NCBI GenBank assembly: GCA_946699065.1
Contig: CAMPDV010000089.1
Location: 186,001-250,000 of the forward strand
Direction: 5' to 3'
Length of the DNA stretch: 64,000 nucleotides
DNA from: Loxodes magnus
Taxonomy: Eukaryota > Ciliophora > Karyorelictea > Loxodida > Loxodidae
In this document: piece after piece, positions 3,117 through 63,012 of the stretch
Layout: every line of letters begins with the position of its first letter
Position numbering within the stretch: the first letter of the stretch is position 1
Made by a program: the position numbers and the translations under genes
The notes under the pieces: model-generated
Told to the model about the DNA's origin: nothing
What the model saw: the letters and a program-made list of their open reading frames with translations, nothing else
Database searches by the model: none

Positions 3117-4738
3117 TTATTATTATTTTTGAGAAAAGTCAGTTAAATAGTAAGTTTATAAAATAATATTTAGAAATTATGTTGTAACTTAAAATAAATA
3201 ATTATATTGTATGGAAAAGTATTTACATTATTTAAATTATAATTAGTCTAAAATTATTTCTAGTCTCTGATATTATAATTTTAGTTAAAATTATTATTTA
3301 TTTAATTAAGCTAATTATGACTATTTATAAAGTAATGCATTAACCTTTTTTGTTTAGTTTAATGAATTCTTATGATTTATACTGTAATCATTTATAGTTA
3401 TGCTTATAAATTCTAATGAATAGGAACATAAAATGTTTATATAGTATTTATTTACTTTATATTTATCAAATTATTTTTATTTTATAACTTATTAATATTC
3501 TATTGTAATGCTCATAATTATTTAAATCCAAAGCTAAACGCAAACTAAATTTAAAAAATAAGATATTATTTATATTTTATATAACTAGCAAATGATGCTT
3601 GTTTAAATTTAAACAAAAAGAGAAATGTTTTCTAGATTTTAAATATTTGATAAGATAATAAGTATTTTACTTTCAAAAGCAAAAAGGAGAAAATATACAA
3701 ATTTCTTATAGATTGGCTGAATTTTAAATACCTTTCAGTAATAGTCTACTTTTGAACTGTAACTTACAATGAGATTCTATTTTCTACCTTAAGTCTTGCA
3801 ATTCTATTTAAATACACTAGAACTATTCTTTCATTTAGAAATATATTAACTATACTTGAATATAGTTAATCTTCATCTTATTTAAATATGTATTCAAAAT
3901 AAAAAAGAAAATACCTAGCACGCAATAATAAGAATCAAAAGTAGTAGCATTAACTATTAAAAGTATAATATTAATTATTTTCTATTTAAACTAATATCTC
4001 AGCTTCTTAATCTTAGATATTTAACACAAATTATAATTAAATCTGTTTAAATAGTAAAAATCAGAAAGTTAATGATTAAGCATATGCTTTACTATTCTTA
4101 TCATTATTTTAATCTGACAACAAAATAACTTTTTAGATTCCTACTTGATAATTTTGCTTTATTTACTTTTATAATTTTTTTCTTATTAAGCTTTTAATTT
4201 AAAATAGTTATACTTTTCCTTTTCCGTTTGGTATGCTTTTAATATGTGTTTAAAGGTTTTTTTAACAATTTTGAGTGAAATAATTTAACTCTTAAATAAT
4301 TTTTATAAATTTGCATTCTAATTATGTTAATTAGCATTAAATCGATTTTAGTTTTAGTTAAAACTTAATTAAGCCAATCTTCAACCACTTGAATTGAATA
4401 ATAAAAAGATTTTCATTAGAAATGATTAATGTAACAATGAAGACTAGCTATAAAGTTTCATTTTGTAGTATCTCTGCTATATAACGAGTTAAAAGTTATA
4501 AATTCTTAAAGTATTAGTTTTATATATTATTATAAATCATGGCTAGCTTAATATTTATTATATCAAAGCTTTTATTGCTGCTCTCTCTAAATAAAACTTT
4601 ATCTTCACCTAGTGGGCTTATCAACTCAGAGTAAAACAGTCAAGCTGCTAAGCGAATGATTTAAGAATTAATTTTTAAGATTTTATATCCTAACTTAAGT
4701 CGAAATTCTTTACTAGATAGCTTTTTTAAATGAAAGAT
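3117..4738. other. Intergenic, AT-rich
   Basis: Very AT-rich sequence with no recognisable domain or repeat on either strand. No gene is supported. Confidence 0.6.
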
Positions 4739-4755
4739 AATAAGCAAAAGACATA
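4739..4755. repeat. Target-site duplication, left copy
   Basis: AATAAGCAAAAGACATA occurs here and again at 5749-5765, directly flanking the gag-like insertion. A 17-bp duplication of this kind is typical of non-LTR (target-primed) retrotransposition. Confidence 0.85.
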
Positions 4756-5748
4756 AAAATAAAAAAATGGTTGAAGGGTTCAAGTCAGGCTTCTATGCCA
4801 ACTCTTCCTAAGCCAAAAAAGAAGGAAGGAAGGAAGCAAGAAACCAAGTCTTAATAATCTTAACAATCTTCTCTATCACAACCTTAATCAACACGGAACT
4901 AACAACTTGGATCTAACAAAACGAACGAAAGCCAACCTTGAAGAATATACACACGGAAACTCCAACCTCAAGCGAGAAACCGAGGAAACAGATGAAGTCT
5001 GTTCTCCACAAGGAGGTATCAGAGTTCAACCCTTCTAGCCAGATGAACATGGAGTAGCTCATCAAAGTGATACTGAACCTCCAGGAAGAGGTCAAGAGAA
5101 TGAAGAAGGACAATGATATGCTGATGGCAAAGCTAGACCTAGCAGAAGGAATTGAGTCAAGACTTATGTCCTAGGAAAGAGATCTTAACGCCTTTTGGAA
5201 TATCTCCACAAAGTCAGACTAACGAATCCTAAAATTAGCTTTAGAAACAGACTGAACTGGATAACAGACTCGGAAAAGTAGAAGAGAAATTGTAAACTTT
5301 TAAGAAAGAGTAAAGCGAAACTGGAGCTATACAAATGGAAATCGAAGCCTAGAAAGAGAAAACAAATCAAGGAAAATAATTAAAAATAAAAAAGAAATGT
5401 TTCTGCTGTGGAAGCGTATGACATTTTTGTCGGAAGTGTTAGAAATTCGAATAGAAATAAAGAAACTATTGGATAAAAGAGCAAAAAAAGAAGAAAAAAG
5501 AAGAAGCAAGAATGAAAAGAATGAAAAGAATGAAAAGAATGTATTGAAACCCGGATGGTTCAATATACAAGATTAAGATGGAACCAAGGCAAGTTAAAGG
5601 AGGGAAAACCTGGAAAATCCGAGTTCCCAATTTCACTAAAATTGGGCGACCCGAACTTTTATATTTAACAGCAGGGAGCATGAACTGCTGTATTCCTGAC
5701 AGGGTTGGAAATCCCTAAAACGGAAAATTTAAAATTAATATTATTATT
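4756..5748 (+). mobile_element. Gag-like non-LTR retroelement, copy 1
   Basis: A ~993-bp unit that recurs, inverted and nearly identical, at 12755-13729. It starts only about a dozen bases upstream of its ATG, ends in a short (ATT)n tail, and is bounded by 17-bp direct repeats (4739-4755, 5749-5765). These are hallmarks of LINE/SINE-type insertion. It encodes a coiled-coil plus zinc-knuckle protein but no reverse transcriptase, endonuclease or transposase, so it must be mobilised in trans if it moves. It is clearly more GC-rich than its surroundings. High copy identity implies recent insertion. Fewer than three copies are visible, so the full-length form is unknown. Confidence 0.85.
4767..5718 (+). 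pseudogene. Gag-like coiled-coil/zinc-knuckle protein, frameshifted
   Basis: From ATG at 4767 the frame reads MVEGFKSGFYA, then a Lys-rich region and a heptad-rich stretch (EEVKRMKKDNDMLMAKL, SRLMSQERDLNAFWN) to about codon 150. The coding signal then continues one base out of frame with more coiled coil and a perfect CX2CX4HX4C zinc knuckle (CFCCGSVWHFCRKC, near 5398-5440), a basic MKR repeat, and a C-terminal block ending in TAA at 5716. The zinc knuckle is the nucleic-acid-binding motif of Gag/ORF1 proteins. A diverged relative at 22320-23100 keeps the equivalent region in one frame, and the second copy at 12755-13729 shares the shift, so the master copy was probably already shifted. Programmed frameshifting cannot be excluded. 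Confidence 0.7.
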
Positions 5749-5765
5749 AATAAGCAAAAGACATA
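5749..5765. repeat. Target-site duplication, right copy
   Basis: Second copy of AATAAGCAAAAGACATA, just after the ATT-rich 3' tail of the insertion. Confidence 0.85.
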
Positions 5766-7590: not shown

Positions 7591-7744
7591 TAATATATAT
7601 AATAAAATAATCATAGTTATTGTTTAAAACTCTGCTTAATAAATTAATAGAGAGTAAATAGCAATTCACTAATACTTTTAAGGTTTATATTAATATTAAT
7701 ATTTTATTTTAATTTAAATAATAATCTTTAGTTTTAATTTGTTC

Positions 7745-9127
7745 TCACTAGATTGAGCATCCACATGTTGTGTCTTTTTCTTCTTCTTCTCCCATAATAA
7801 TTCATCTTCTATCCTATGCTCTAAGATCATAAGAATATAATTTATCTTATAGGCTTACTGTTTAACTCGAGCTTCACATCCAAAGTTTTCCGTAAGAGAA
7901 TAAACCATTATACCAAAATTAATAATTACGATATTTCAATGGATAACTTTCTCCATTTTTATATATGCACTTTTAATCGTATAAACACGTCTGATTCAAA
8001 CATTTGCAACCGTCAAATATAAAAATGCCTTAATTTTCCTCTGCATATATAGATGCAACTAAAAATGTCTAGTTAGGTAATTTTGTATCCTCAAAACTAT
8101 TTCAAGAATTCTACTAAGAATCATATTCGAATATTTTATCCGATCTTTAACAAACTATCTTATTCTAATTTTCAAAAATTTGTCCTCCAAACGTTAATAA
8201 TTTGCCTTCTGCGCAGCCAGATCCATTAGCTTTAATTTATTATTTGTGATCTGCTATCTATTTCGATAAGTGTCTAGTGCTGTCATATACTTCGCATTTA
8301 TTCGTCTAAAAATAATGATTATAATTTTTATTTAATATAAGCCCTCCTATTATATATACGAAATTAGCATTATCATAGGCTAATGAAGTCTCAAATATTG
8401 GAGTTTGTGTTTATATCTGACTTATTACCTTTCTGTTCTCAACATCCGTAATTCCAATATACCTATCTTTTAAATCATATCCCCCTACCAACACTATTTT
8501 ATTATCACTCATCTATTGAGAAGTTGTAAGGTTTAATTTTAAACGGTGTAAGTTACTTATTACATAAGTTGAAGAAACATCTGGACTTTATGAAACGTCT
8601 GAGATTTAAAGAATGTTGTATTTTCTACTTAGTCTGTAATATTTTGTAATAGTCTTAGGTGGTTAATCTTTAGCCATTTAAGCTATTTCTTAAGGTAAGC
8701 TATAAGAATATTGATAATTTGTTTTTACCTCTTCTTAAATGAATTAGCTCTATACCATCGATTTTATTTAATGCTCTATATGTGATTATCTACACTCAGC
8801 ACATATGGGTATATCGTCTTGAATGCATATTAAATAGCAAGGAAGTTAGTGAATAGAACAATCTTAAGGTCCTTGGTCATTAGATTCTAGCTATTCTTAA
8901 TTTGAAATTACTTCTTACTAAATTATTACATTTATATCGACTATTTGTAGCCTGTCAATACTTTATGTGGTAGTCATTTAATGCTAATCACATACCAATT
9001 TTCCTTGACGCTTGACAATATTTACAAGACAGGTTTCACAACTTATGCATCCACAAACTTGCCTTCTTGGTATCTTTTCGGTGTCATTAAAAGCTATTCC
9101 ACAATCTTTGCACAAAAACTCTTACAT
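7745..9127 (-). CDS. TRIM-like RING/B-box/kelch protein, paralogue 1
   Basis: A 461-codon intron-free frame from ATG at 9127 to TGA at 7747-7745. Residues ~6-49 form a RING-like Cys/His array (CKDC, CGC, CETC, CDQH), about 89-125 a B-box-like array (CSIH, CLICIQ, CAEC, HIEH), and about 200-440 a kelch-type propeller (motifs LVGGYD, YIIGGL, TFGGQI, WFWYNG). By analogy with TRIM/KLHL proteins it could be a ubiquitin ligase, but the finger spacing is not canonical, so this is inference. Trp in the propeller is spelled TGA. The ending CGCSIQ-TGA matches the paralogues at 19670 and 27898. The closest relative is 19670-21070; beyond the stop the two align only with indels, as expected of untranslated sequence. 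Confidence 0.85.
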
Positions 9128-9502
9128 TTTATATAATAACTTTTGGTATAAATACAAATAGTTAGATATTAAAAAATAATAATTAAATATAATCCTTTCT
9201 ATTTATAAAGCATACTTATGCTGGTATTTTATATCTTAAACTATACTTAATTCATTTTATTTAATAAGTAACAAAATAATATAATAATTGTTATATTCAT
9301 CATAGTTTCAGTGATGGCTTTTAATGATTAGATATAATTAAATTTTTATTGAGTTATTAAATTTTTACTTATTTCAAAATATTATTATAAATATATATTT
9401 TTCTAATTCAAACACTCAGACTAATCAAACAAAAAATGTATCAGTAAGTCATTATGTAAAGATATCATTAAATACAATGTTAATATAATAATATATATAC
9501 TA
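9128..9502. other. Intergenic, AT-rich
   Basis: Upstream region of the TRIM-like gene; nothing recognised. Confidence 0.6.
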
Positions 9503-12740: not shown

Positions 12741-12754
12741 GGTTACTTATTATT
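12741..12754. repeat. Target-site duplication, left copy
   Basis: GGTTACTTATTAAT, repeated at 13730-13743, flanks the second gag-like insertion. Confidence 0.8.
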
Positions 12755-13729
12755 AATAATAATATTAATTTTAAATTTTCCGTTTTAGAGATTTCCAACC
12801 CTGTCAGGAATACAGCAGTTCATGCTCCCTGCTGTTAAATATAAAAGTTCGGGTCGCCCAATTTTAGTGAGATTGGGAACTCGGATTTTCCAGGTTTTCC
12901 CTCCTTTAACTTGCCTTGGTTCCATCTTAATCTTGTATATTGAACCATCCGGGTTGCAATACATTCTTTTCATTCTTGCTTCTTCTTTTTTCTTCTTTTT
13001 TTGCTCTTTTATCCAATAGTTTCTTTATTTCTATTCGAATTTCTAACACTTCCGACAAAAATGTCATACGCTTCCACAGCAGAAACATTTCTTTTTTATT
13101 TTTAATTATTTTCCTTGATTTGTTTTCTCTTTCTAGGCTTCGATTTCCATTTGTATAGCTCCAGTTTCGCTTTACTCTTTCTTAAAAGTTTACAATTTCT
13201 CTTCTACTTTTCCGAGTCTGTTATCCAGTTCAGTCTGTTTCTAAAGCTAATTTTAGGATTCGTTAGTCTGACTTTGTGGAGATATTCCAAAAGGCGTTAA
13301 GATCTCTTTCCTAGGACATAAGTCTTGACTCAATTCCTTCTGCTAGGTCTAGCTTTGCCATCAGCATATCATTGTCCTTCTTCATTCTCTTGACCTCTTC
13401 CTGGAGGTTCAGTATCACTTTGATGAGCTACTCCATGTTCATCTGGCTAGAAGGGTTGAACTCTGATACCTCCTTGTGGAGAACAGACTTCATCTGTTTC
13501 CTCGGTTTCTCGCTTGAGGTTGGAGTTTCCGTGTGTATATTCTTCAAGGTTGGCTTTCGTTCGTTTTGTTAGATCCAAGTTGTTAGTTCCGTGTTGGTTA
13601 AGGTTGTGATAGAGAAGATTGTTAAGATTATTAAGACTTGGTTTCTTGCTTCCTTCTTTTTTGGCTTAGGAAGAGTTGGTATAGAAGCCTGACTTGAAAT
13701 CTTCAACCATTTTTTTTAAACTGTTTATT
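12755..13729 (-). mobile_element. Gag-like non-LTR retroelement, copy 2
   Basis: Reverse-orientation copy of the unit at 4756-5748, nearly identical over ~950 bp. It has the same (ATT)n 3' tail (here at the left) and its own 14-bp target duplication (12741-12754, 13730-13743). Sequence just 5' of the ATG differs from copy 1, so the 5' junctions are independent. It sits inside the 9.5-14.3 kb stretch bounded by hairpin motifs, so it is probably a younger insertion into older element DNA. No enzyme gene is present. Confidence 0.85.
12785..13710 (-). pseudogene. Gag-like coiled-coil/zinc-knuckle protein, copy 2
   Basis: ATG at 13710, TAA at 12787-12785. It carries the same frame break after the AFWN segment and the same CX2CX4HX4C knuckle as copy 1. 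Differences seen: a Gly/Phe to Asp/Phe change near the start, two fewer 9-base AATGAAAAG units in the MKR repeat, a TGC Cys where copy 1 has TGA after MKRMY, and Leu for Phe in the C-terminal block. The shared frame break means either programmed frameshifting or a defective common parent moved in trans. Confidence 0.7.
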
Positions 13730-13743
13730 GGTTACTTATTAAT
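13730..13743. repeat. Target-site duplication, right copy
   Basis: Second copy of GGTTACTTATTAAT. Confidence 0.8.
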
Positions 13744-14706: not shown

Positions 14707-15501
14707 ATGGAAATGGAATAGAATATTCGACTATCTAAAAATTAGGCAAGGAACGCAAGAAGAAGAGCTAACAAAGAACTAGAGGAGAAGTAGAAATAAA
14801 TGGAACACTTATCAAACTCCTCTTCAGAAGGCAAAGTAATGGTTGGACAAGTTAATGAGAGCACTTCGCTTTCAATTGAAATGGAAAAGATGAAAAAATT
14901 AATTTCTAAATATGAAGAAGAAACATATAATCAAGGAGAAAGAATTAGAGAGCTTATGAATAACATTGAGAATCAAAATAACGAACTATTAATTCTTAGG
15001 AAGTAGCTTATATAAGACAATATTGTGACAGAACAATAGCTCTATACTCAGTCTTAAAATAATTTCAAACAAGGGGTAAACATGAGTATTGAAGTCCTCC
15101 CTTCTTAAGCAAAAGATTAAGAAATAAATATAGAATAGAATGTTGATAAAAGTTTAATTAAAAGAATAGAACAAATAGAAAAATTAGTTTTGCCTTAGTT
15201 GAATAAAAAAAATAGACAAAAAATTGTTGATGTTGTAGGTTGAAATATCACTTATTAAAAAATTGTTAAAAATGATAAAAATTGAAAAAAAGAGAAGAAA
15301 TAAAAACATGAAGGATGTTAAACAAACTTTGAATAACCGACTCATGAATTTATAAATATAAATTATTTAGTGGTAACATGGAAAATTCATTGTGGTAGCC
15401 ACCCACATTCAAAAAAAGGTCGTGGTATATATCCACGTTAAAAAAAAGGCGGAGTGAAATCGGTTGGAATCCCGAAGAACTCCAAAACTCTTAACATTTA
15501 G
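14707..15501 (+). CDS. Coiled-coil protein of the gag-like island, 264 aa
   Basis: A single 264-codon frame from ATG at 14707 (MEMEQNIRLSKNQARNARRR) to TAG at 15499. Residues ~55-105 are heptad-rich (MEKMKKLISKYEEETYNQ, RIRELMNNIENQNNELL). The C-terminal third is Lys/Gly-rich with scattered Cys and His (HEGC, PTHEF, HCGSHPH), perhaps an unusual metal- or nucleic-acid-binding tail. A diverged inverted homologue lies at 16433-17141 (YEETILRQGEIRELTNTIDD). It resembles the gag-like family in layout but lacks the CX2CX4HX4C knuckle. An intact frame suggests function or recent activity. No enzyme domain. Confidence 0.6.
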
Positions 15502-15895
15502 TTTACATTATTATTATAAGTAGTTCTAATAATTTCTTATTTTTTAATTTAAATAAAGATAAATGAATACTAATATAAAACTAAGACTAATTATGCCAAA
15601 CTCTTTTCCATATATTTGATATTTTATATTATAAACTATGCTTAACATAAAAATAAAATAAACTGTCACCTTCTTTTTTTCTAGTAGCTTTAGTATAAAC
15701 AATATAATGTAATGTATCTTTTATATTTCTAATTTTTTCTAAATTGCTAGTAAAAGTTTTACTTTATATCTATTTTTCTTTTTTCTTCATATTATTGGTT
15801 TTCCTTTGAGATTTTCTAAACTTCATATATTTAAAAATAGGTTTTTATACTTATTTCTTCAGTAATTTTAGATATATACATTTTATAAAAATTAG

Positions 15896-16183: not shown

Positions 16184-16399
16184 TACACTAGGAGTTATCT
16201 TCAATAAGTATCAATTTTAAATTAATAATAATTGAGAATTTGTTCTTAGAAACTTTATTTGCTTGGTAAAATTAAATTATATTCATGTCAGATACTTTAT
16301 AAGCATTATATAAAACAATTATGAATACCTTCAAAGATAAAAGTTATCTTACATATTTAATATAAAAAAAATGAAAATATTAATAATAATAATCTAATA

Positions 16400-16432
16400 A
16401 ATTAAAGTGTTTACATTCTTGAAATTCTCAAC
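16400..16432 (-). repeat. Weak hairpin-motif copy
   Basis: AATTAAAGTGTTTACATTCT shares the outer part of the motif (AATTAAAGTG) and lies 3' of the minus-strand homologue 16433-17141, as expected, but the inner stem is not conserved. Confidence 0.3.
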
Positions 16433-17141
16433 CTGATACCTGCAGATATTTTGTTTATGTGGATGAATACTTCGTCCTTTTCTTTATGTGGTAGGTTACC
16501 ACTAATAATTTTCAACATTTATTGCAGACATTTTATATTTTTTATTCCAGTTTTAGTTATTGGCAATTAATTTAACATCCTTCATTTTTTTAATGTTCTT
16601 TTATCTAGAGTTTTTTCAAGCACAGCATTTTCGCAATACATAGTTGTTGACCTTGCATTATCAGCAATTTTTTTTCTTTTTTTATTCTAAAAAAATTTTC
16701 CCAATTTCTCTATTCTCTTTTATAAATTTTAATCGATTTTTTTTATTGTTTAATTTCTTAATAAATTAATTAGCTTAGTCTTTTTTATAATCATGTTTTG
16801 TTATTGACTAACTGTCGATTGTGATTGTTCATAAAGTTACTAATTTATTACTATTTTTTTTAGATTAGTTGTCAACTTAGTCGTCAATAGTGTTCGTAAG
16901 TTCTCTAATTTCACCTTACCTTAAAATTGTTTCTTCATAATTTTAGATTAATTTTAAAATTTTGCCTAATTAATTTTAGAATTTTTGATAAATTTCATTT
17001 TTAAGTTCTTTTATCTCTAAAAATTTAATCATAGACTTAACTTCTGATTAGTAACTAGATTTCTCATGTTTCTATCGCTATTTCTCCATTTCTTTTACTG
17101 CTTTTCTCCTAAAATTTTTAAAGTTAATTTTTGAGAGGCAT
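16433..17141 (-). pseudogene. Inverted diverged homologue of the 14707 gene
   Basis: ATG at 17141 (MPLKNQLQKFQEK). In a shifted frame it carries ILKLIQNYEETILRQ and GEIRELTNTIDD, matching the coiled coil of the 14707-15501 protein, then GCQIN and CNKCWKLLVVTY matching its tail (GCQTN, NYLVVTW). Here the tail has two extra Cys that form CX2C. The pair point toward each other across ~1 kb. Several frame changes indicate decay unless small introns explain them. Confidence 0.45.
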
Positions 17142-18580: not shown

Positions 18581-19669
18581 AATTTTTTAGGCCGTTTAAT
18601 ATTTATTTGAGCAAATAAACTACTAGAATTTCTATTCTTTTTTTTTGAAAAAATCAAACTTACATAATATAGTTAATCTTAATAAATAAATTTAAGATTC
18701 CTCTTATATAAAATGAAGTTTAATAATAAGAAAGGAGTTAGTATGGAGAAGCTGATGGAAATATAAATATAATATATTATTTTAATAATAAGGTGCTATA
18801 ACTAAGTTAGGTATATAAATTTTATTATCCCTTAGCTTTAATAAATAATCATAAGTAACTTCACTTTTAAATAAGCATAAAATGCTATAAGCACTTAAAT
18901 AATATTTTAGGTAAAGGCAAATTAACAACATAATTAGATATTATTTCAAAATTTTAAGATAATTAGTAAATCTCAGTAATTCTAGTAAGTTCTTATTAAA
19001 AAAGAGTTCAATTAGCTTATTTAAATATAAATAAGTTTATCTATTTAATTTGTAGAAATTTAGAAATATAGCCTTTAAGATTCTAATAGTTTAATATCTA
19101 GTTCCTTACTATCTCAAGTTGATATATTATTCTCTCTTTCAATCATCTTAAAAGTATCTAGATGTATAAAATTCTTAATTATAAGACTGACAAAATATTT
19201 TTAAATTAACCAATCAAAGAAGCAAGTTAATTGAAAATAATAATAAGATAGAAGTAATTAAATGTAAATAATTAAGGTTCTTAAGGGAATATTTTAATTA
19301 GGCATAAATAACATTAATAGAGTTCAGAGTTAGGGAATATATTTCAAGGTGAAAAAGGAGAATTTAACTTAAATGTACACGAAAAATTCAGAAAAATGAA
19401 GTTTTTTCTAAAAAGAAATGATCAATATATATAGTTTAAAAACATTTAATTTAACATACTTTAAGACTCATTAATAAGTTACTGCTATTGAACTTAAGAT
19501 AAAAGGAAATTGATTAACTCCTAAATAATTTGATTATGTATTTTTCATTCTGTTTAATAAATTACCAAGGAGTAAATTATAATACACTAATGATTTTTCC
19601 TTTTTCTAAACTTTTTATTTAATTTATAATTTTAAGTTTAAATAATAGTCTTTAGTCTGTAATTCGTTC
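18581..19669. other. Unassigned, AT-rich
   Basis: Some stretches (for example 19260-19420) look weakly coding in two competing frames, but there is no domain or frame preference good enough to call a gene. Confidence 0.4.
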
Positions 19670-21070
19670 TCAATAGATTGAACATCCACATATTAAGTCT
19701 TTTTCATTTTCAACAAATTCATCTCATTTTCTATACTTTGCTCTAAAGTCATAGGTATATAATTTATCATAATAGTTTTGATTTGTACTCGAGCTTCACA
19801 TTCAAAGTCTTCCACAAGAATTCAAGCCATTATACCAAAACCAATCATTCAAATATTTCATCGGATAACTTTTTCCATTTTTTTGTATGGATTTTCAATC
19901 ATATAAGCACGTTTGATTCAAGCATTTGCAATTATCAAATATATACATGCATTAATTTTCCTCTGTAAATATGCAAGCCAATTAAATTGCCTAATTAGGT
20001 AATTTTATGGATTCTATATCAATCCATACATTCTACTAAGAGTCATACTCAAAAATTTTATCTGATCTTGAATAAACAAAATTATTCAAATCTTCTAAAA
20101 TTTATCCTCCAAATGTTTATACTTTGCCCTTGGCTGATCAAGTTCCATTGAACTTAAGTTTTTTTTTGTGGTCTGCTATATGTTTCGATAATCGTTTACT
20201 ATTGTCATATACTTCACATTTATTCGTCTCAAAACTAAATCCTCCTATTTCGTTCATTATATATCCTCCTATTATATATACATAGTTATCGTTATCATAA
20301 GCTAAGGATGTTTAAAATCTTGGAGTTTATGTTTATATCTAACTTACTGCCTTTCTATCCTCAACTTCAGTAATGCCAATATAATCTTTCTTTTTATCAT
20401 ATCCACCTACTAATACTATTTTATAATCATTTATCTATTACGAACTAGTAAAGCCTCATTATAAAGAATGCATGTCATTTATTACATAAGTTGTTATTAC
20501 AGCTGGATTTTATTAAATATCAGAGATCTAAAGGATTCTGTATCCTTTACTTAATCTGCAATATTTTGTAATAGACTATAGCGAATTATTTTTAAACATT
20601 TAAGATATTTCTGGAAGTAAATCATAAGAATAATGATAGTCTGATTTAGTCTCTTCTTATATGAATTAGCTTCACTATATCGAATTTATTTAATGCTTTG
20701 AATGCGTCTCTTATCTACATTTAATACATATTGGTATATTGTCTTGAATACATATAAAATTGCAGGGAAGTTTGTGAATAGAACAATCTTAAGGTTATTA
20801 ATCATTAGATATTGCTAAATTTCTAGTTTATTGATCTCCTTATTTTTATATTTCTTCTTATTTAATTATTTCTCTTTTATCAACTATTTGCAAACTATCA
20901 ATTCTTTAAGTTGTGGTCATTTAATGCTATTCACAAACCAATTTTCCATAATTTTTTACCATTTCTTTAAGACAATTTTCACAATTTATACACCCACAAA
21001 CTTATCTTCTTGGTTTCTTATCTTTTTCATTAAAATTTTTGGCACAATTTTTACAATTAGCCTCTTACAT
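19670..21070 (-). CDS. TRIM-like RING/B-box/kelch protein, paralogue 2
   Basis: A 467-codon intron-free frame from ATG at 21070 to TGA at 19672-19670. The layout is the same as paralogue 1 and clearly homologous over the full length: N-terminal Cys/His array (CKNCAKNF, CGCINC, CLKEMV), B-box-like CSIHKLPC / CIQDNIPICIKC, then kelch repeats (LVGGYDKKKDYIGITEVE, YIIGGYI, WFWYNGLNSCG, LWMW). TGA codes Trp in the last motifs. The end is CGCSIY-TGA, the same position as in the other two copies. About 12 bases past the TGA an extra base appears relative to paralogue 1, showing loss of coding constraint after the stop. It lies ~1.1 kb from the hairpin motif at 18537. Confidence 0.85.
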
Positions 21071-21321
21071 TTATATAGTAACTTTAGATGAAAAAAGTAT
21101 TTGAATAGTTTAATATTAATAAAATAAATAAAGCATAGTCCTTTTTATTTATAAGGCATGCTTATACTGTTTATTTAACTGTATTTACTACCTAATTAAC
21201 TTTGCTAACTGCACTTCATAGTAAAATATTTAATTAACATATTTTTTATATTTTAGCTTATTTCAAACGCTAAATAATATTCATTTGAACTAGATTTAAG
21301 TGCATAAGCAATAAAGATTGT

Positions 21322-27800: not shown

Positions 27801-27897
27801 GTTTAGTAAATAACTTGAGACTAATATATATTAAAAGATAAAATGGAAAATTTTAGTTTTTTAATCTTTAAATTTAATTTAAGTAAAAATTTTAGAA
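24874..27897. other. Long AT-rich intergenic region
   Basis: Includes a short AGAT repeat near 25528-25546 and a Lys-rich stretch near 26940-27060 (KECRKKLDNKRKRKW) that resembles element protein tails but has no other support. No gene called. Confidence 0.4.
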
Positions 27898-29954
27898 TCA
27901 AAAAATTGAGCAACCATTCTTCAGCTTCACTATTTTAGAGGCTTCCCATTTTGCCTATTGTCTTACTTCGTAGCAGTAAAGTAAATCCAACTATTTTTAG
28001 CTTTTATTTTAATTTCACATTCATATTCTGCTATTGTCATATATCCCATTATACCAAAATGGTTATATGTCTGAATACTTTGGATATTCTTATCCATCCG
28101 AAGTTATTTCTTTTTAGTCATATAAACAAGTTTGATTTAGGCAACCAAAACTATCAAAAATAAATACGCAATTTAAATTTCTTGCCTATACTGATGCCAC
28201 TTTATTTGCCATTTACGGTAGTTTAATATCGCTTTCTTACCATTTATTCTGTGTTTAGTCATAGTAGAATATTTTATCAGTTTTTTATTCATTATTAATT
28301 TGTTCCTGTATACTTCCTCCAAATGTGCTTATCATATCAAAAGCATAGCATGATCCATGAGAAAATATTTTATAAATATGGTTTGGTATTGACATAGATT
28401 TTTTCTACTAAATCTTATAAACTTCACTATTATTTATTTAATAGAAATTCTAACTACTACCATTTTATCCTCCTATTATATATACCTCTTTCTCCCTATC
28501 ATCATAAGCTAAAGACGTACGAAATCTGGGTGTTATCAAATTGTCTTTACTTACAACTTAGGTTTTCTAAATATTCGTTATATAATTCTTGTTCGTATCC
28601 ATTCTACTTCCTCCCACTAATATAATATAATCATTTTCTATTTAGTATGAAGATGAAAAAGATTAATAAATCTAATTTAAGTTAGGAACTTTTTAACTAG
28701 TAAACAATACAGGATCAGAATCAATATCACTTATTTATATTTAATTAGATCAGGGTTCAATACGAAGGTATTACTTAGGTTATTTGTTTATTTGTTTATT
28801 TTTTTTATTTTGTAAATCTATTTTCTTTTTTTTAAAAATTTCTTTTTATTAATTTAAACCAACTTAAACTTCTGATTATTTAACACTTAATTATATATTT
28901 TTTTTTAATCTAATAAATTGACTGTTTCCCATTAAGAATTTGCTTTTTATTAATTGCCTTATCGGAAGCTTCCATCCAAATTTTACTTATTTTGATCTTT
29001 TAACTTCTATAATTCTTCTTTAGTTTTCTATTTTTATTCTTTTAACTATTTTATTTAATGCTATTAATGTTCAAATATGTTTTCTTATTCTTTTATCCAA
29101 ATTTAAAAAGGCTTTCTTTCTTTTAGTTACTAAAAAAGCAGCTAATGATAGTTATCTTCTTTCTCTTGACATAAACTTTTATATATTGTCTCTAATCTCT
29201 ATTAGTTGGCAGTTATATCCTTATTTATTCTATCGATTTCCTTTTATTTTAGTTAGCATTCTTAAAATGTTTATTCATTTAAAAGACTTACTGCTTCCAT
29301 CTTTCGCTGTAAATTCTAAATGGTCATTATAACTTCGGATATTTATTATTATGCAAACTCATATTTTTCTTCTATCGTTTTTAGTTAAATTTAGTTTATT
29401 CTATCTGTCTCTTCACAAATAATGCTCTACACTTCAGTAACTCATTTCATTAAATCCATCCTTTTATTATTCATCATAGTATTAATGCTTCCATTGTCCT
29501 TTATGTATTTATACTTCTACTGAATCTTTAGTTGTAGCTCTTATAAACTACTCTTTATTTATTTTTTCATGATGATTACTTCTTCATTTTGTGATTCTGC
29601 TTAATACTCTACTTTTGTTGTTTCTATGCATTAAAGGCATTAGGGTTAATCGCACAAAGTACTAAAAAATTATAAAGGACTTCCATGGAGAGAACATAAC
29701 TATGCTTGCTATTATAAAATAAGACTTTTGTCTTATTTTATTGCTTACGTGGATTTATTAGCAATAGGAATTTCAAGTTATTAAATGGATTTATTAGTGG
29801 TAACATTATGCTAGACACATAATGCCCTTTTGTCAACCTTTGAGACAGTTATAAGACATTTTTCACATCATATGCACCCACAATCTAACTTCCTTAGTTT
29901 TTCATTAGTTTCCTCATACAATTGCTTGCATTTCCCACATCTCAAAACTTACAT
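27898..29954 (-). CDS. TRIM-like RING/coiled-coil/kelch protein, paralogue 3
   Basis: ATG at 29954 (MQVLRCGKCKQLYEE) to TGA at 27900-27898. N-terminal Cys/His array (CGKC, CGCIWCEKC, CVQH) and second array (CSLHGSP, CDQPQC, CIE), then a long Gln/Glu/Lys-rich coiled coil from about residue 110 to 360, absent or short in the other two copies, then a kelch region (ILVGGSRMDTNKNY, VYIIGGQNGSS, STFGGSI, KWQESDIKLP, WYNGIYDNS). The kelch frame is offset by two from the coil; total length minus 17 is divisible by three, so one 17-nt intron is expected near 28750-28870, but I could not fix its ends. It ends NGCSIF-TGA like its relatives. About 679 aa. The longest and most TRIM-like of the set. Confidence 0.8.
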
Positions 29955-41003: not shown

Positions 41004-42016
41004 TAATTTATAATTTAATGAATATAAGAATTTCTATTTATCTTTTATCTTTTCTATTAATACCAGATTCACTTTCTCCATACTTTACTCTAATAAATTT
41101 AACTGTATAAATGCGTGATTTTTATTAGTTACCTGCTAATTATATCTAAACAATACACAAATCATTAGTTACTTCCTTCTTCACATGTTGATAATTATAA
41201 AAGTTGAATATTTTATATGTGCTCTTTTTATTTAATATATGGAAAGATATTTTCGCTATACTTAATATAGAGAAATAGCTCAGTATTAAATAACAGTCTT
41301 AAAGCTTATACAATAATTATTAAAATACTTAAATACGTATATTGATAGAAAGTGAAGAAAACTAATAAGAATATAATTGATTAATCTGCTAGTTAGACAA
41401 ATAGCTTTATTAAACTATGACTTGATGATCTATTATGTACAGATGCTTCAACATTTAACTTAAATAAAAAGCAGCGAGACAAATTAAAAAATATAGAGAT
41501 CAATTGTTAATAATAAGCTTATCAATTGCAAAGATCTTTTATCTTTCTAATATAATTAAGCTATCATTAAATAAGAAAATAAGAATGATTAGCTAACTTT
41601 AATTTTCTCTTATAACATAAAATAAATTAAGAAGTACTAATATATCACACGTATATAATGTTTAAGCATCTTAATAAATTTTTTTTTCTTTTAGACGGTT
41701 TTATTTGTAGATTTATCCACCCCTTTTTTTCTTTTTATTGTTAATAATATTTTTCTACTAAAGTTTAAGTATTAATGCTGTTAAATTTCAAAAATTCAGT
41801 ATACTAGTCAAAGACTAATTCTTGACATGCAGTTCTTTGCTAATTGTGTTAGACGAAAAAATCTTACTCTGAGTTAACTAGTTTTGCATCTTAAGTACTT
41901 ACCTTAATTATATCAGCATAGTATATGAGAATGGCATCCAAATGCTCTAATCTATCTCTTGAAAACTTGTAAGTTATCAATTTGGTTTAAAATTTTAACT
42001 AATTAAGCTATTTAAA
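41004..42016. other. Intergenic, AT-rich
   Basis: Nothing recognised. Confidence 0.6.
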
Positions 42017-43762
42017 ATGTAAAGACTAGAAACTGCACTTTCAATTCTGAAATAAACGAAGCCAAATAATAGAAGTGAAGCCTAAATAAGGTCTATTTAT
42101 GAATGCTTGAAAAACGTGAAATTTTTTAAAGAATTGGAGGAGGAGTATGCATTAGAGTGCTGTGCTAGAATATACTTAGAAGACTTTAAGAAAGACTAGT
42201 TGATATTCCAATACATGGATGAAGGATTTACTTTTTATATTATACTTCAAGGTAGTGTTGGAATACTTGTTCCTAGGGATGTTAAACTAGCTTAAGAGCA
42301 TTTCTATTAATATGAAAAGAAACTTAAAAAGAAGTCAAACAACTAGAATGTCTAAAATCCTTGTAGTATTATTCAATTCTATGAGTGTGTTGTATTGTAA
42401 GCTGGTGCTAGTTTTGGGGAAATTGCATTGATAAAGAAAAAGAAGAGATAGGCGGGTGTAGTGGCTAAAGATGATTGTAGTATGGCAGTGTTAAGTAAAT
42501 ATGACTATAACGAAGTATTAGCCAAAATAGAAAATCAGAAAATTGAAAGAACAATTGATTTCTTTGCTAGTATCAAATTCTTCTAGCACTGAGCAAGACC
42601 AAGACTATTTGAATTGAGCTACTTCTTTCAGATAAAATCTTTTAGGAAGTTATAAGTAGTTTTTGACCAAGGAGAACAACCATATCAAATCTATTTCGTG
42701 AAAGAGGGAGAATTTCATCTATTCAAGAATAGAGAAAAGAACCTGCCTAAAATATAGCTTGCTATTGTAGGGTAACATGATATAATTGGTATTGAAGATA
42801 TAATATAAAATAGAGCATAAAGATCATATACTTGTAAATGTCACTCTGAAAATGGGAAGCTATACTCTATCTCAATTACTGATTTTTAAAACAGGATAGA
42901 TGAGCTAACTATCAATAAAATGAAAACGCATGTTTACTTTATAGAAAAATTTAGAGAAAGAGGTTCGGATAAAGGGAAAGAAAAAGAAATTAAGATAATA
43001 GCTAACAAAACTTAGGAAGATGTTAGCTTTTATATATAAAGTTCCACAGTCACTGATGTAAACAAGAAAATGTTCTCTAAGGAGTGTAAAAGTTCGACTC
43101 GTTAAAAGACAAACTAACTAATTAAGAGACTGCAATTTCAACTAAAAGAAAGAGATATGAACCAAGATAGAAATAAGAGATCTTATTTAAGGTATTAAGA
43201 ATAAATCTATTCAAACAAGTGAGATACTTAAAAAGGAAATGCTAGTTAAACTCCTACTAAATAAAAACAAACCAATTAAATAAGTTTACCTAAGATATCT
43301 GAAATATAAGTGATGAAAAGAAGAGTATTGAGCTCACTGATATAGAGTTTAGCTAAAGATAATACATAATCTGTTTAATTATAATCTCTTAATAGAGTAG
43401 AAACACTATATTCAACACCTCAAAAAAAGCAGACTAGAAAATGTGCTTGTAATCACTCAGATAACCTCAATTCGATTACCCCATAATATTAGAACAGTTA
43501 TTGATCTAATTGTACTAATTTTTAGAAAATAGGCAAAGAATAAATGCCAAAGAGCTTTTTAACAGTAAATAAGTTAAAGCTAGAACAATTTACAGACTTT
43601 CAATTAAAAACTGACCGTGAAAGATATTAAGTTTGACATTCTAATAAGATAGGAAATATCACCTTAGATAGAAAAAGAAATTATAACTTCTATCACCGTT
43701 AAAGACTTCTGACGAATACTTTTGATGACTTGAGATAGCCGAATTCATTTTAAGAATATTGA
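42017..43762 (+). CDS. Tandem cyclic-nucleotide-binding-domain protein, ~581 aa
   Basis: ATG at 42017 (MQRLETALSILKQTKPNNRS) opens an intron-free frame. Residues ~28-180 are a cNMP-binding domain (SIYECLKNVKFFKEL, GFTFYIILQGSVGI, SFGEIALIKKKKRQAG phosphate-binding cassette). Residues ~185-300 are a second domain (FFASIKFFQHW, YQIYFVKEGEF, IIGIEDII) with a degenerate cassette. The last ~280 residues are Ser/Lys/Gln-rich and probably disordered. Such proteins sense cAMP or cGMP; this is not a kinase subunit fusion, though a free regulatory-subunit-like role is possible. The stop is ambiguous: TGA at 43760 (used here) or TAA at 43790, both in frame. Internal TGA codons read as Trp (HWARP, QVWHS). 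Confidence 0.85.
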
Positions 43763-57100: not shown

Positions 57101-57737
57101 TTATAACTGAAGAGTTATATCTTTCTTTATAAATGTAATATAAAACCAAATTACTAATTTTTCATTTTTAATCTAATTTTAAAGAATCTTAATTCAAAAA
57201 TTAAGTTTAAAGAGATTACTCAAAGTTGTTATAATAGTTATCTGTCTATTTAAGACTTATAACTAGCAGTAGAAGTATAAATAAAATTAAATATCGTATT
57301 AAAATTAACAAAAAGGAAAAGATCTTACATTTTGAATTTAATTAGCAAGGGTAAATTTAAATAATTATAATAAAATTTAAAATAATACCAAAAACTAAAA
57401 GCTTAAATTTTAAGCATTCGAAGCAAATTAATTATGCAATTTTCAATTAATAAGGTATAGCATAATTACTATGACTTGGAGTATTTTTTATAACTATCTT
57501 ATTTTTAATAAAGAGATATGGATAGCTTTATTATAACACATTAGCAACTGAATAGAAGAAATATAGCAATTCCTTCTTTTATAGGAATTTAATTACCTTA
57601 AACTATAAATGCTCATTATGTGTCTAGCGAAAAGTAATTTTGTAATATTGAAAGATCTAATAATTTTTTAGTTTGTATGTATTGAAATATTCGATACTCA
57701 AGTTAAATCAGAAATAATTAAATAATGTTGATCATGC
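54161..57737. other. Long AT-rich intergenic region
   Basis: A short stretch from 54530 reads MKKEDFVALIKYSRIPMLQN and a further ~40 reasonable residues, possibly a small gene or exon. The rest shows nothing recognisable. Confidence 0.4.
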
Positions 57738-59236
57738 TTACAAATCGCTTCTTATGATTTTTTTAAACTCCTCAAAATCAATAGATCCTGTCTAATTAAA
57801 GTCTGCCATTTTAAACATCTTCATCAGATTAGGATCATTTTTCATTCCCAATGCTTGAGCGAAATCAGTTGGAGTAATTGTGCCTGTTTATTTCTAAATG
57901 AACAAATTACGTAATCAAAGAAGCGGAATGCTTATTACAAAATTTCATCATTATTTTAAATTTTGTCTGCTAGAACTGATGTTAAATACTCTGAAGTATT
58001 ATAAGCATTACCTGAAAACGTAATCGAATCTTATTTTTATTTTCCAAGCTTTAGGAAAAATTCATCTATAACTTTGTTTATGACTTATTTCTTTACATTA
58101 GAGACCTTTTACTATAACATTCATTTTAGTTCTTTCCTCTCTATACTTCCTGTCCCATCAGAATCTATGCATCTAAAAAATGCTTCAGATTCGATTTTCA
58201 TTTCTTAATTAGCAAATCTTTCTATTATGAATGCATATGCCATTATTTTCCATGGATTCATTTTATTAAATTTTTGGAAGCTTGTCAAAATTGAGTAGCA
58301 ATATTCCATAGAATATTAGTTTTGTTACCCTGATAACTATAAATTCCTTTTCTAAGCTTCATGAGGCGAAATTCGTGATTTAGGGTCCGTTTTTAGCATA
58401 TTCATAATGAGATCAACATATTAGCTATCATATTTAGATAACTAATTTTAGAAAAGTTTGTAAACGTTAAAGTTGGAATCTGCTAGTGATTTTAAAATTA
58501 TCTCTTCACTTGGTCAAATTTTTACGAATTCTTCTCCTACCAACATTCTCAAAGCTATAATACCTATAGATCAAATATCAGATTTACTATCTATCAATTA
58601 ATGCTTCTCATTGATTATTTCAGGAGATTCATACATATATTTAGTCGCGCTTTCTTACTCTGGAAACTCTTTTGTTATCATACAAGTTGAAAATTACTAT
58701 AAAGCTAAGTACTTTAAAGAGTTTATTTTTCTTAGTAGAATCAAATTAGGATTTATTTATCTGTGTGTTATCTCTTTTTCACTTAAAAAGCAGACAGCAG
58801 AAAGCATTTGGTATAAGAACTATTTAACATCTTCTAAACAAAACTTCCATTTCATTTACTCTGCGTATTACTCAAATGAACTACCTTCACAGTGTTCAAG
58901 TATAAGAAAGCAGTAAGGAGGTTCAATGAAGTATTCATAGATCTTGACAAAGTTATTATGATCTATGAGCAATAATCTATCCATCACATCCTAAAAGACT
59001 AACAAACTAAGTTAAGGATTAGCTCTAATTATCTTAGCCACTGAAAGCTAATCTTTCTAGTGCTTAGAAAATATCTTTAGTATTTAAACATTCTTTCTCT
59101 AATGAATTATAGCGTTCTATTATGCCTTTTAGTAGCAGATTTCAAACATTTCCTAGTTCCTTTTAACAAAAACTTTTGGCTCATATTAAAATATACCTCA
59201 ATTTTTATGGTCTCTGTGAAGACAACAGCTTCCCAT
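57738..59236 (-). CDS. N-acylated CDPK-like pseudokinase with EF-hands, 493 aa
   Basis: ATG at 59236 begins MGSCCLHRD, a consensus for N-myristoylation with adjacent palmitoylation, as in many CDPKs. One 17-nt intron (57894-57910, GTAATTTGTTCATTTAG) and TAA at 57740-57738 give exactly 494 codons. Residues ~75-335 are kinase-like (NNFVKIYEYF, YCFLILEHCEGSSFEQY, SPEIINEKHQ, KSDIWSIGIIALRMLVGEEF), but the catalytic loop is HRQINPNLILL (Asp to Gln), no DFG is seen, and no Gly-rich loop is present, so it is probably inactive. The C-terminal ~140 residues hold EF-hands: DSDGTGSIERKEL, DYKQTGTITPTDF, ADFNQTGSIDFEEF. The first looks calcium-competent, the others degenerate. Likely a calcium-responsive membrane scaffold. 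Confidence 0.85.
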
Positions 59237-62035: not shown

Positions 62036-62433
62036 AGTAATTCAAATAAATAATCATTAAATTATAAAAATGTCGTTACTGAACTCACATGATTTTACCT
62101 ATTCTTTTTACTAGTAAACTCATACTTTCTTCTTTACTCTCTCGTTATTTTATATTCTCGTGCATCATCACAAAATTTGGTTACTGTAAATGCTTTAATT
62201 ATTTCAGTTTGTACTTCAACATCTTGAAAGTGTAGTTAGGATATTCTTTCTTCATTTTATCCCAAAATCTTCGACTCGTGTGTAAGTATTTTCTACAAAA
62301 CTCACTAAATCTCAAGGCTTCTTTTCTATCCCACTTTTATAACAAGCATGGTTGTAAAACTTTGAGCCATCTTCTCTTCACTTGTTTGAAGTTTTTAGCT
62401 TCTTTATCTTTATTGGCCCATTAATTAAGTGTG
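62036..62433 (+). repeat. Left arm of ~400-bp inverted repeat
   Basis: The reverse complement matches 62614-63012 with only a few differences, including non-coding sequence beyond the gene end. The 180-bp spacer 62434-62613 is single-copy. Confidence 0.95.
62085..62433 (-). pseudogene. Truncated mirror copy of the Myb-like gene
   Basis: Minus-strand copy of the Myb-like coding region from codon ~37 to the TGA (62087-62085). It lacks the start and the first helix, which lie in the single-copy spacer. One difference replaces a TAG with a TAA Gln codon, which is synonymous in this code; another changes GTA to GTT (both Val). So the arms have either diverged under coding constraint or been recently homogenised. 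Confidence 0.7.
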
Positions 62434-62503
62434 TACAAATTAAATAAATTTTAATTACTGGAATTTAAATCTCTCTTATAAGCAAATTACTGACTAAATT
62501 ATA

Positions 62504-62962
62504 ATGAAAAATATGAAGCTAAGTCTTAAAGAATCCTGGTCCTTCCAAGAAGATTAATTCATCGTCTAGTTCTTATCTAATAACAACAATGTCATATGAA
62601 CTCAGTTCACTCTCACACTTAATTAATGGGCCAATAAAGATAAAGAAGCTAAAAACTTCAAACAAGTGAAGAGAAGATGGCTCAAAGTATTACAACCATG
62701 CTTGTTATAGAAGTGGGATAGAAAAGAAGCCTTGAGATTTAGTGAGTTTTGTAGAAAATACTTACACACGAGTCGAAGATTTTGGGATAAAATGAAGAAA
62801 GAATATCCTAACTACACTTTCAAGATGTTGAAGTACAAACTGAAATAATTAAAGCATTTACAGTAACCAAATTTTGTGATGATGCACGAGAATATAAAAT
62901 AACGAGAGAGTAAAGAAGAAAGTATGAGTTTATTAGTAAAAAGAATAGGTGAAATCATGTGA
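62504..62962 (+). CDS. Myb/SANT-like DNA-binding protein, 152 aa
   Basis: A single frame from ATG at 62504 (MKNMKLSLKESWSFQEDQFI) to TGA at 62960. Two Myb-like helix-turn-helix repeats: residues ~11-66 (WSFQEDQFIVQFL, NVIWTQFTLTL, FKQVKRRWLKVLQP) and ~69-115 (KWDRKEALRFSEFCRKYL, TSRRFWDKMKKEYPNYTF, KMLKYKLK), with the regularly spaced Trp of each repeat present (one spelled TGA). Expected to bind DNA as a small R2R3-like factor. From codon ~37 on, the gene lies in the right arm of the inverted repeat and has a truncated mirror copy at 62085-62433. If both strands are transcribed, the arms could pair as RNA. Confidence 0.75.
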
Positions 62963-63012
62963 GTATCAGTAACGACATTTTTATAATTTAATGATTATTT
63001 ATTTGAATTACT
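62614..63012 (-). repeat. Right arm of ~400-bp inverted repeat
   Basis: Mirror of 62036-62433; contains most of the Myb-like CDS and ~50 bp beyond its stop. Confidence 0.95.

Follow-up and report, generated by a model that had tools for sequence, protein, structure and literature searches.

The window, by which we mean the whole stretch of 64,000 nucleotides of Loxodes magnus DNA that was analysed, contains an inverted repeat that includes most of a small gene. Repeat finding and gapped alignment delimited the arms, and translation delimited the gene, giving the following features:

62036..62433 (398 nt), minus strand: left arm, an inverted copy that begins at the end of codon 37, passes the stop codon and includes about 50 nt of 3' flank.
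62434..62613, no strand: spacer, 180 nt of single-copy sequence made up of codons 1-36 and the 70 nt that precede the ATG.
62504..62962, plus strand: small gene, complete, 152 codons and a terminal TGA, with a weakly Myb/SANT-like N-terminus.
62597..62599, plus strand: in-frame TGA, probably tryptophan, at codon 32 within the spacer and 20 positions after W12; a kinase gene of the window provides the precedent.
62614..63012 (399 nt), plus strand: right arm, the source segment, beginning at the third base of codon 37 and running to the stop codon plus 50 nt of 3' flank.

The first-pass annotation had reported a gene with a truncated mirror copy, near-identical arms that run past the gene end and a spacer carrying about the first 36 codons. 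The repeat search and the alignment reproduce these arms exactly, the right copy is complete and the left one lacks codons 1-36. Absent from that annotation were two features described here: the in-frame TGA at codon 32 and the orientation of the left copy, which lies head to head with the intact gene.

In the repeat search, the arms are recovered as two segments, one of 351 nt with 99% identity (62083-62433 and 62614-62964) and one of 47 nt with 100% identity (62036-62082 and 62966-63012), which are separated by a single base, 62965, present only in the right arm. Over the 399 columns of the gapped alignment, the arms differ by this one-nucleotide gap and by four substitutions (left/right positions 62358/62689, 62337/62710, 62114/62933 and 62096/62951), a divergence of 4/398 or about 1%. 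With up to three mismatches allowed, the outer part of 47 nt matches only these two sites, against 0.00 expected from 100 shuffles, which excludes chance. Non-coding sequence around the arms has a GC content of 0.171-0.191; the left arm reaches 0.291 and the right arm, over its coding part, 0.309. When the sequences beyond the arms were compared with dinucleotide-simulated flanks, the best score on the outer side (48) was matched by 64 of 300 simulated sequences and the best score on the inner side (16) by 133 of 300, so that neither is significant. A blastn comparison of the window with itself does prolong the alignment beyond the arms, if weakly (516 columns at 91%), but the flanks are AT-rich and the simulation accords this no significance. 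On these scores, we reject a longer, decayed palindrome outside the arms.

Other repeats are present in the window. Another inverted repeat, about 1 kb long (4738-5753 and 12750-13741) and with arms 7 kb apart, is 96.7% identical over 993 blastn columns; it has a 698-nt core that is 100% complementary, and most of the difference consists of two length changes in short repeats. Inspected by eye, it shows an interrupted frame that includes a CCHC-like motif and may derive from a retroelement gag. A CCHC-like motif was also seen by eye in a more diverged inverted pair (15116-15562 and 16344-16762, 66% identity); as this motif finds no Pfam support in either repeat, we do not retain it. A direct duplication (7631-9231 and 19549-21177) has 75% identity, and a frame whose B-box and Kelch matches fall slightly short of their cut-offs overlaps its first copy. 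Finally, positions 1518-2960 hold a diverged array of 11 copies, mostly in steps of 69 nt, with long open frames on both strands. Searches of the window returned no Rfam match at the gathering score and no tRNA.

The intact gene had been described as Myb-like. A partial Pfam match to Myb_DNA-binding speaks for this, but it covers residues 9-26 only, with an E-value of 0.024-0.032 and a score of about 15 bits where the cut-off is 24.4, and no full Myb domain above the gathering score was found in the 152-residue protein. A search of solved structures with the gene product gave a best match of only E 0.76. Tryptophans stand at positions 12, 32 (the TGA), 42, 59, 71 and 94. Two tryptophans with 19 residues between them are the usual Myb spacing, and reading the TGA as tryptophan yields exactly such a W12-19-W32 pair; W59 lies 26 residues further on, which is longer than usual. 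We treat the possible Myb-like identity as a lead and not as a finding. Bacterial, archaeal and viral collections, which may not include the genome of the window itself, were searched for relatives. In viral contigs, a query with 120 of the 152 residues gave one pattern match; in prokaryotic genome contigs, three stretches matched. None of these was confirmed, and an exact DNA pattern matched none of the prokaryotic contigs; this is as expected for a ciliate gene.

How codon 32 is to be read depends on the use of TGA elsewhere in the window, for which one gene is particularly informative:

57732-59197, minus strand: protein kinase gene with EF-hand-like segments, three in-frame TGAs within domain matches and a likely 17-nt intron.

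This gene reads ...SKSDI-TGA-SIGIIALRMLVGEEFVKI-TGA-PSEEI..., with TAA and TAG as glutamine codons in frame, and its first TGA occupies the conserved tryptophan site of the SDIWSxG motif. Translating TGA as tryptophan lengthens the Pkinase match from residues 73-208 to residues 73-283 and raises its score from 53.7 to 94.7 bits; the TGAs at residues 209 and 228 lie within this match and that at residue 359 within the EF-hand match. Removal of the likely 17-nt intron (57894-57910, minus strand) restores the EF-hand-like segment FDYKQTGTITPTDF; an alternative intron of 20 nt also keeps the frame, with a poorer fit to the motif. A second gene (41963-43219) runs on through an in-frame TGA (42590-42592, residue 210) located between cyclic-nucleotide-binding matches at residues 144-190 and 225-312 and within neither of them. 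Presumably this TGA corresponds to a conserved tryptophan of such proteins; the joined score, 77.4 bits, does not exceed what the two parts give together (42.7 and 38.8), so this gene is the weaker evidence, showing one frame on both sides of the TGA and not tryptophan itself; the duplication hypothesis does not depend on it. The reading of the code is based on two genes, each picked since its domain match abutted a TGA. As a counter-example, some long frames lack TGA, such as one of 591 codons at 27819-29591 with only one TGG; this frame has no Pfam match and may not be a gene.

The kinase gene displays the karyorelict-type code (NCBI table 27), in which TGA is tryptophan and TAA and TAG are glutamine; that TGA also serves as a stop codon was assumed from position. 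In L. magnus, TGA is reported as both tryptophan and stop, with an intron mode of 17 bp and a negligible number of introns below 16 bp (PMC11441545). The TGA use and the putative 17-nt intron of the window fit this karyorelict code, as in Loxodes, and since they do, we consider the right-hand gene probably intact and still working, with codon 32 translated as tryptophan. Without this reading, the gene would look like a pseudogene broken by a stop. A pseudogene with a premature stop is less likely, given that TGA occurs within the domain matches of another gene and that the tryptophan reading produces the W12-19-W32 spacing. It is possible, and again less likely, that a 15-nt GT...AG intron (62591-62605) excises the TGA, as this would delete W32 and Loxodes introns shorter than 16 bp are negligible. 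Pfam cannot choose between the two, with E 0.024 when the 15 nt are removed and 0.032 when TGA is tryptophan.

The left copy begins with the final base of codon 37; its frame is preserved up to the stop codon, beyond which about 50 nt of the copy follow. It has no codons 1-36, and its end lies 70 nt from the ATG of the intact gene. The spacer contains no in-frame ATG upstream of it, and its first in-frame methionine is found 59 codons inside the arm. The left copy, which lacks an upstream start codon, is probably an untranslated pseudogene. Three of the four substitutions between the arms are synonymous (V62, Q69 and L144) and one is nonsynonymous (E150K); the difference at codon 69 is the TAG/TAA glutamine change noticed earlier, which is real. 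By type, they are three transitions and one transversion. The expected synonymous share of random substitutions here is 17%, or 37% for transitions alone, and the probability of at least three synonymous changes out of four is 0.018 if all substitutions are equally likely and 0.14 if all are transitions. This excess is at most suggestive of constraint, which would be unlike a dead left copy; the changes may sit in the right copy.

From these observations, we hypothesize that the repeat is probably a young local inverted partial duplication of the gene, formed through template switching or fold-back repair. The nascent strand would have folded back, or switched to the opposite strand, inside the gene during replication or break repair; about 399 bp would then have been copied, through the stop codon and a short 3' flank, and the copied segment would finally have been rejoined to the upstream sequence. 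What we found are two near-identical inverted copies, a single-copy spacer and sharp outer ends, and we favour a local copying error because the mirror orientation, the distance of 180 bp from the source, the sharp ends and the single-copy spacer then need the least coincidence. Foldback inversions have reportedly been described in a yeast study. In fold-back inverted duplications, a single-copy spacer adjoining the inverted copy is the signature (PMC3907307); those events are large, mostly with kilobase spacers and terminal deletions, whereas the duplication here is interstitial, with 399 bp and a 180-bp spacer. Template switching reportedly creates new hairpins, and such mutations resemble our locus in being local reverse-complement copies whose perfect stem can later gain mismatches; the cases considered concern microRNA loci and rRNA stems and were inferred from phylogeny (PMC8794818), while here the reading is drawn from the anatomy of the repeat. 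The duplication may be young, or even polymorphic, because the arms, about 1% apart, differ little more than do the alleles of L. magnus, for which a heterozygosity of about 0.6% is reported (PMC11441545).

The same closeness bears on an artefactual origin, in which a fold-back read or an inverted chimera of whole-genome amplification would have joined two alleles during assembly or amplification: with so small a divergence, the differences by themselves are not enough to tell a duplication from two joined alleles. Chimeras of the fold-back type are a familiar artefact. However, such an artefact has one junction with arms that continue outward, whereas at this locus each arm comes to an end and the flanks outside them are unlike each other, so that a chimera would need two independent junctions; we consider this origin unlikely. 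A further alternative is that a dispersed repeat or mobile element is present here twice, with the left copy truncated at its 5' end as in a LINE-mediated insertion or a processed retrocopy. The 5' truncation and the 50 or so nucleotides past the stop do resemble a cDNA end, 3' UTRs in L. magnus having a mean of 53 and a median of 41 bp (PMC11441545); the genome is also rich in non-LTR retrotransposons (PMC11441545), and dispersed repeats may account for the window's other inverted repeats. Yet there is no poly(A) and no clear target-site duplication: the longest T run is 3, so no poly(T) marks a retrocopy, and the best candidate duplication, with shifts of up to 6 allowed, measures 6 nt (P 0.064). 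We therefore reject a processed retrocopy. Furthermore, blastn finds no other copy in the window, where just three isolated 14-mers are shared, and a mirror-oriented insertion 180 bp from its own source would be a coincidence. We regard a mobile origin as highly improbable.

It had also been suggested that a read-through transcript would form a hairpin of about 400 bp. The folding part of this proposal holds: an RNA across both arms would fold almost completely, with a long near-perfect stem, at -671 kcal/mol where 20 shuffles average -178, although this is inevitable for any such repeat. The expression part fares less well, in that, with the copies head to head, a promoter placed in the spacer would transcribe each of them in the sense direction only, and double-stranded RNA would need read-through from outside, on either strand. 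At present, hairpin RNA is a possible but incidental consequence of a local inverted duplication. That the locus is instead a functional hairpin-RNA locus, whose read-through product of about 400 bp would be cut by Dicer into siRNAs of about 24-25 nt that silence the gene or its paralogues, seems to us doubtful. It could draw on the strong fold and on exact left-arm matches to 272 of the 375 25-mers of the right arm; in plus-strand RNA, each of the three transitions results in a G.U pair (a 1 in 8 chance) and the transversion in A.A; but three G.U sites are too few to show selection, and the spacer could drive only sense RNA of either copy. L. magnus has Dicer homologues and strand-biased small RNAs of 24-25 nt, probably antisense siRNAs (PMC11441545). 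In Drosophila, young hpRNAs can arise from partial copies near the target gene, with precedents in D. simulans (PMC10317233). A newborn self-targeting hairpin-RNA gene, in which the upstream mirror copy would yield gene-specific siRNAs and the G.U-leaving transitions would keep the plus-strand stem paired, is quite unlikely.

The palindrome had, in addition, been tied to ciliate genome rearrangement. This link is weak and finds no support here: L. magnus showed no IES excision, and the passages of PMC11441545 that deal with small RNAs report no evidence for editing-associated ones. On a hairpin-RNA reading, the gene would have arisen in a lineage from which genome-editing small RNAs have so far not been reported.

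Among known systems, plant microRNA genes are said, from work by Allen in 2004, to be born by inverted duplication. In them, as here, part of a coding gene is copied close to the original to give an inverted repeat, but they are supported by RNA, whereas here there is DNA alone. The likeness is the same for the Drosophila hpRNA loci Dsim-hp58 and ballchen (PMC10317233), which are likewise backed by RNA data and differ in this from a locus known from its DNA. In the literature searched, we found no ciliate hairpin locus of this kind described; in the portions of a Paramecium siRNA paper available to us (PMC6735861), mention of hairpins is confined to the introduction, where miRNAs are discussed. 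Even without transcription of a hairpin, the locus is a clean case of a short local inverted duplication. If the hairpin is made, a karyorelict-like ciliate would hold a very young siRNA locus that arose by inverted duplication, through which the birth of such loci could be tracked outside animals and plants.
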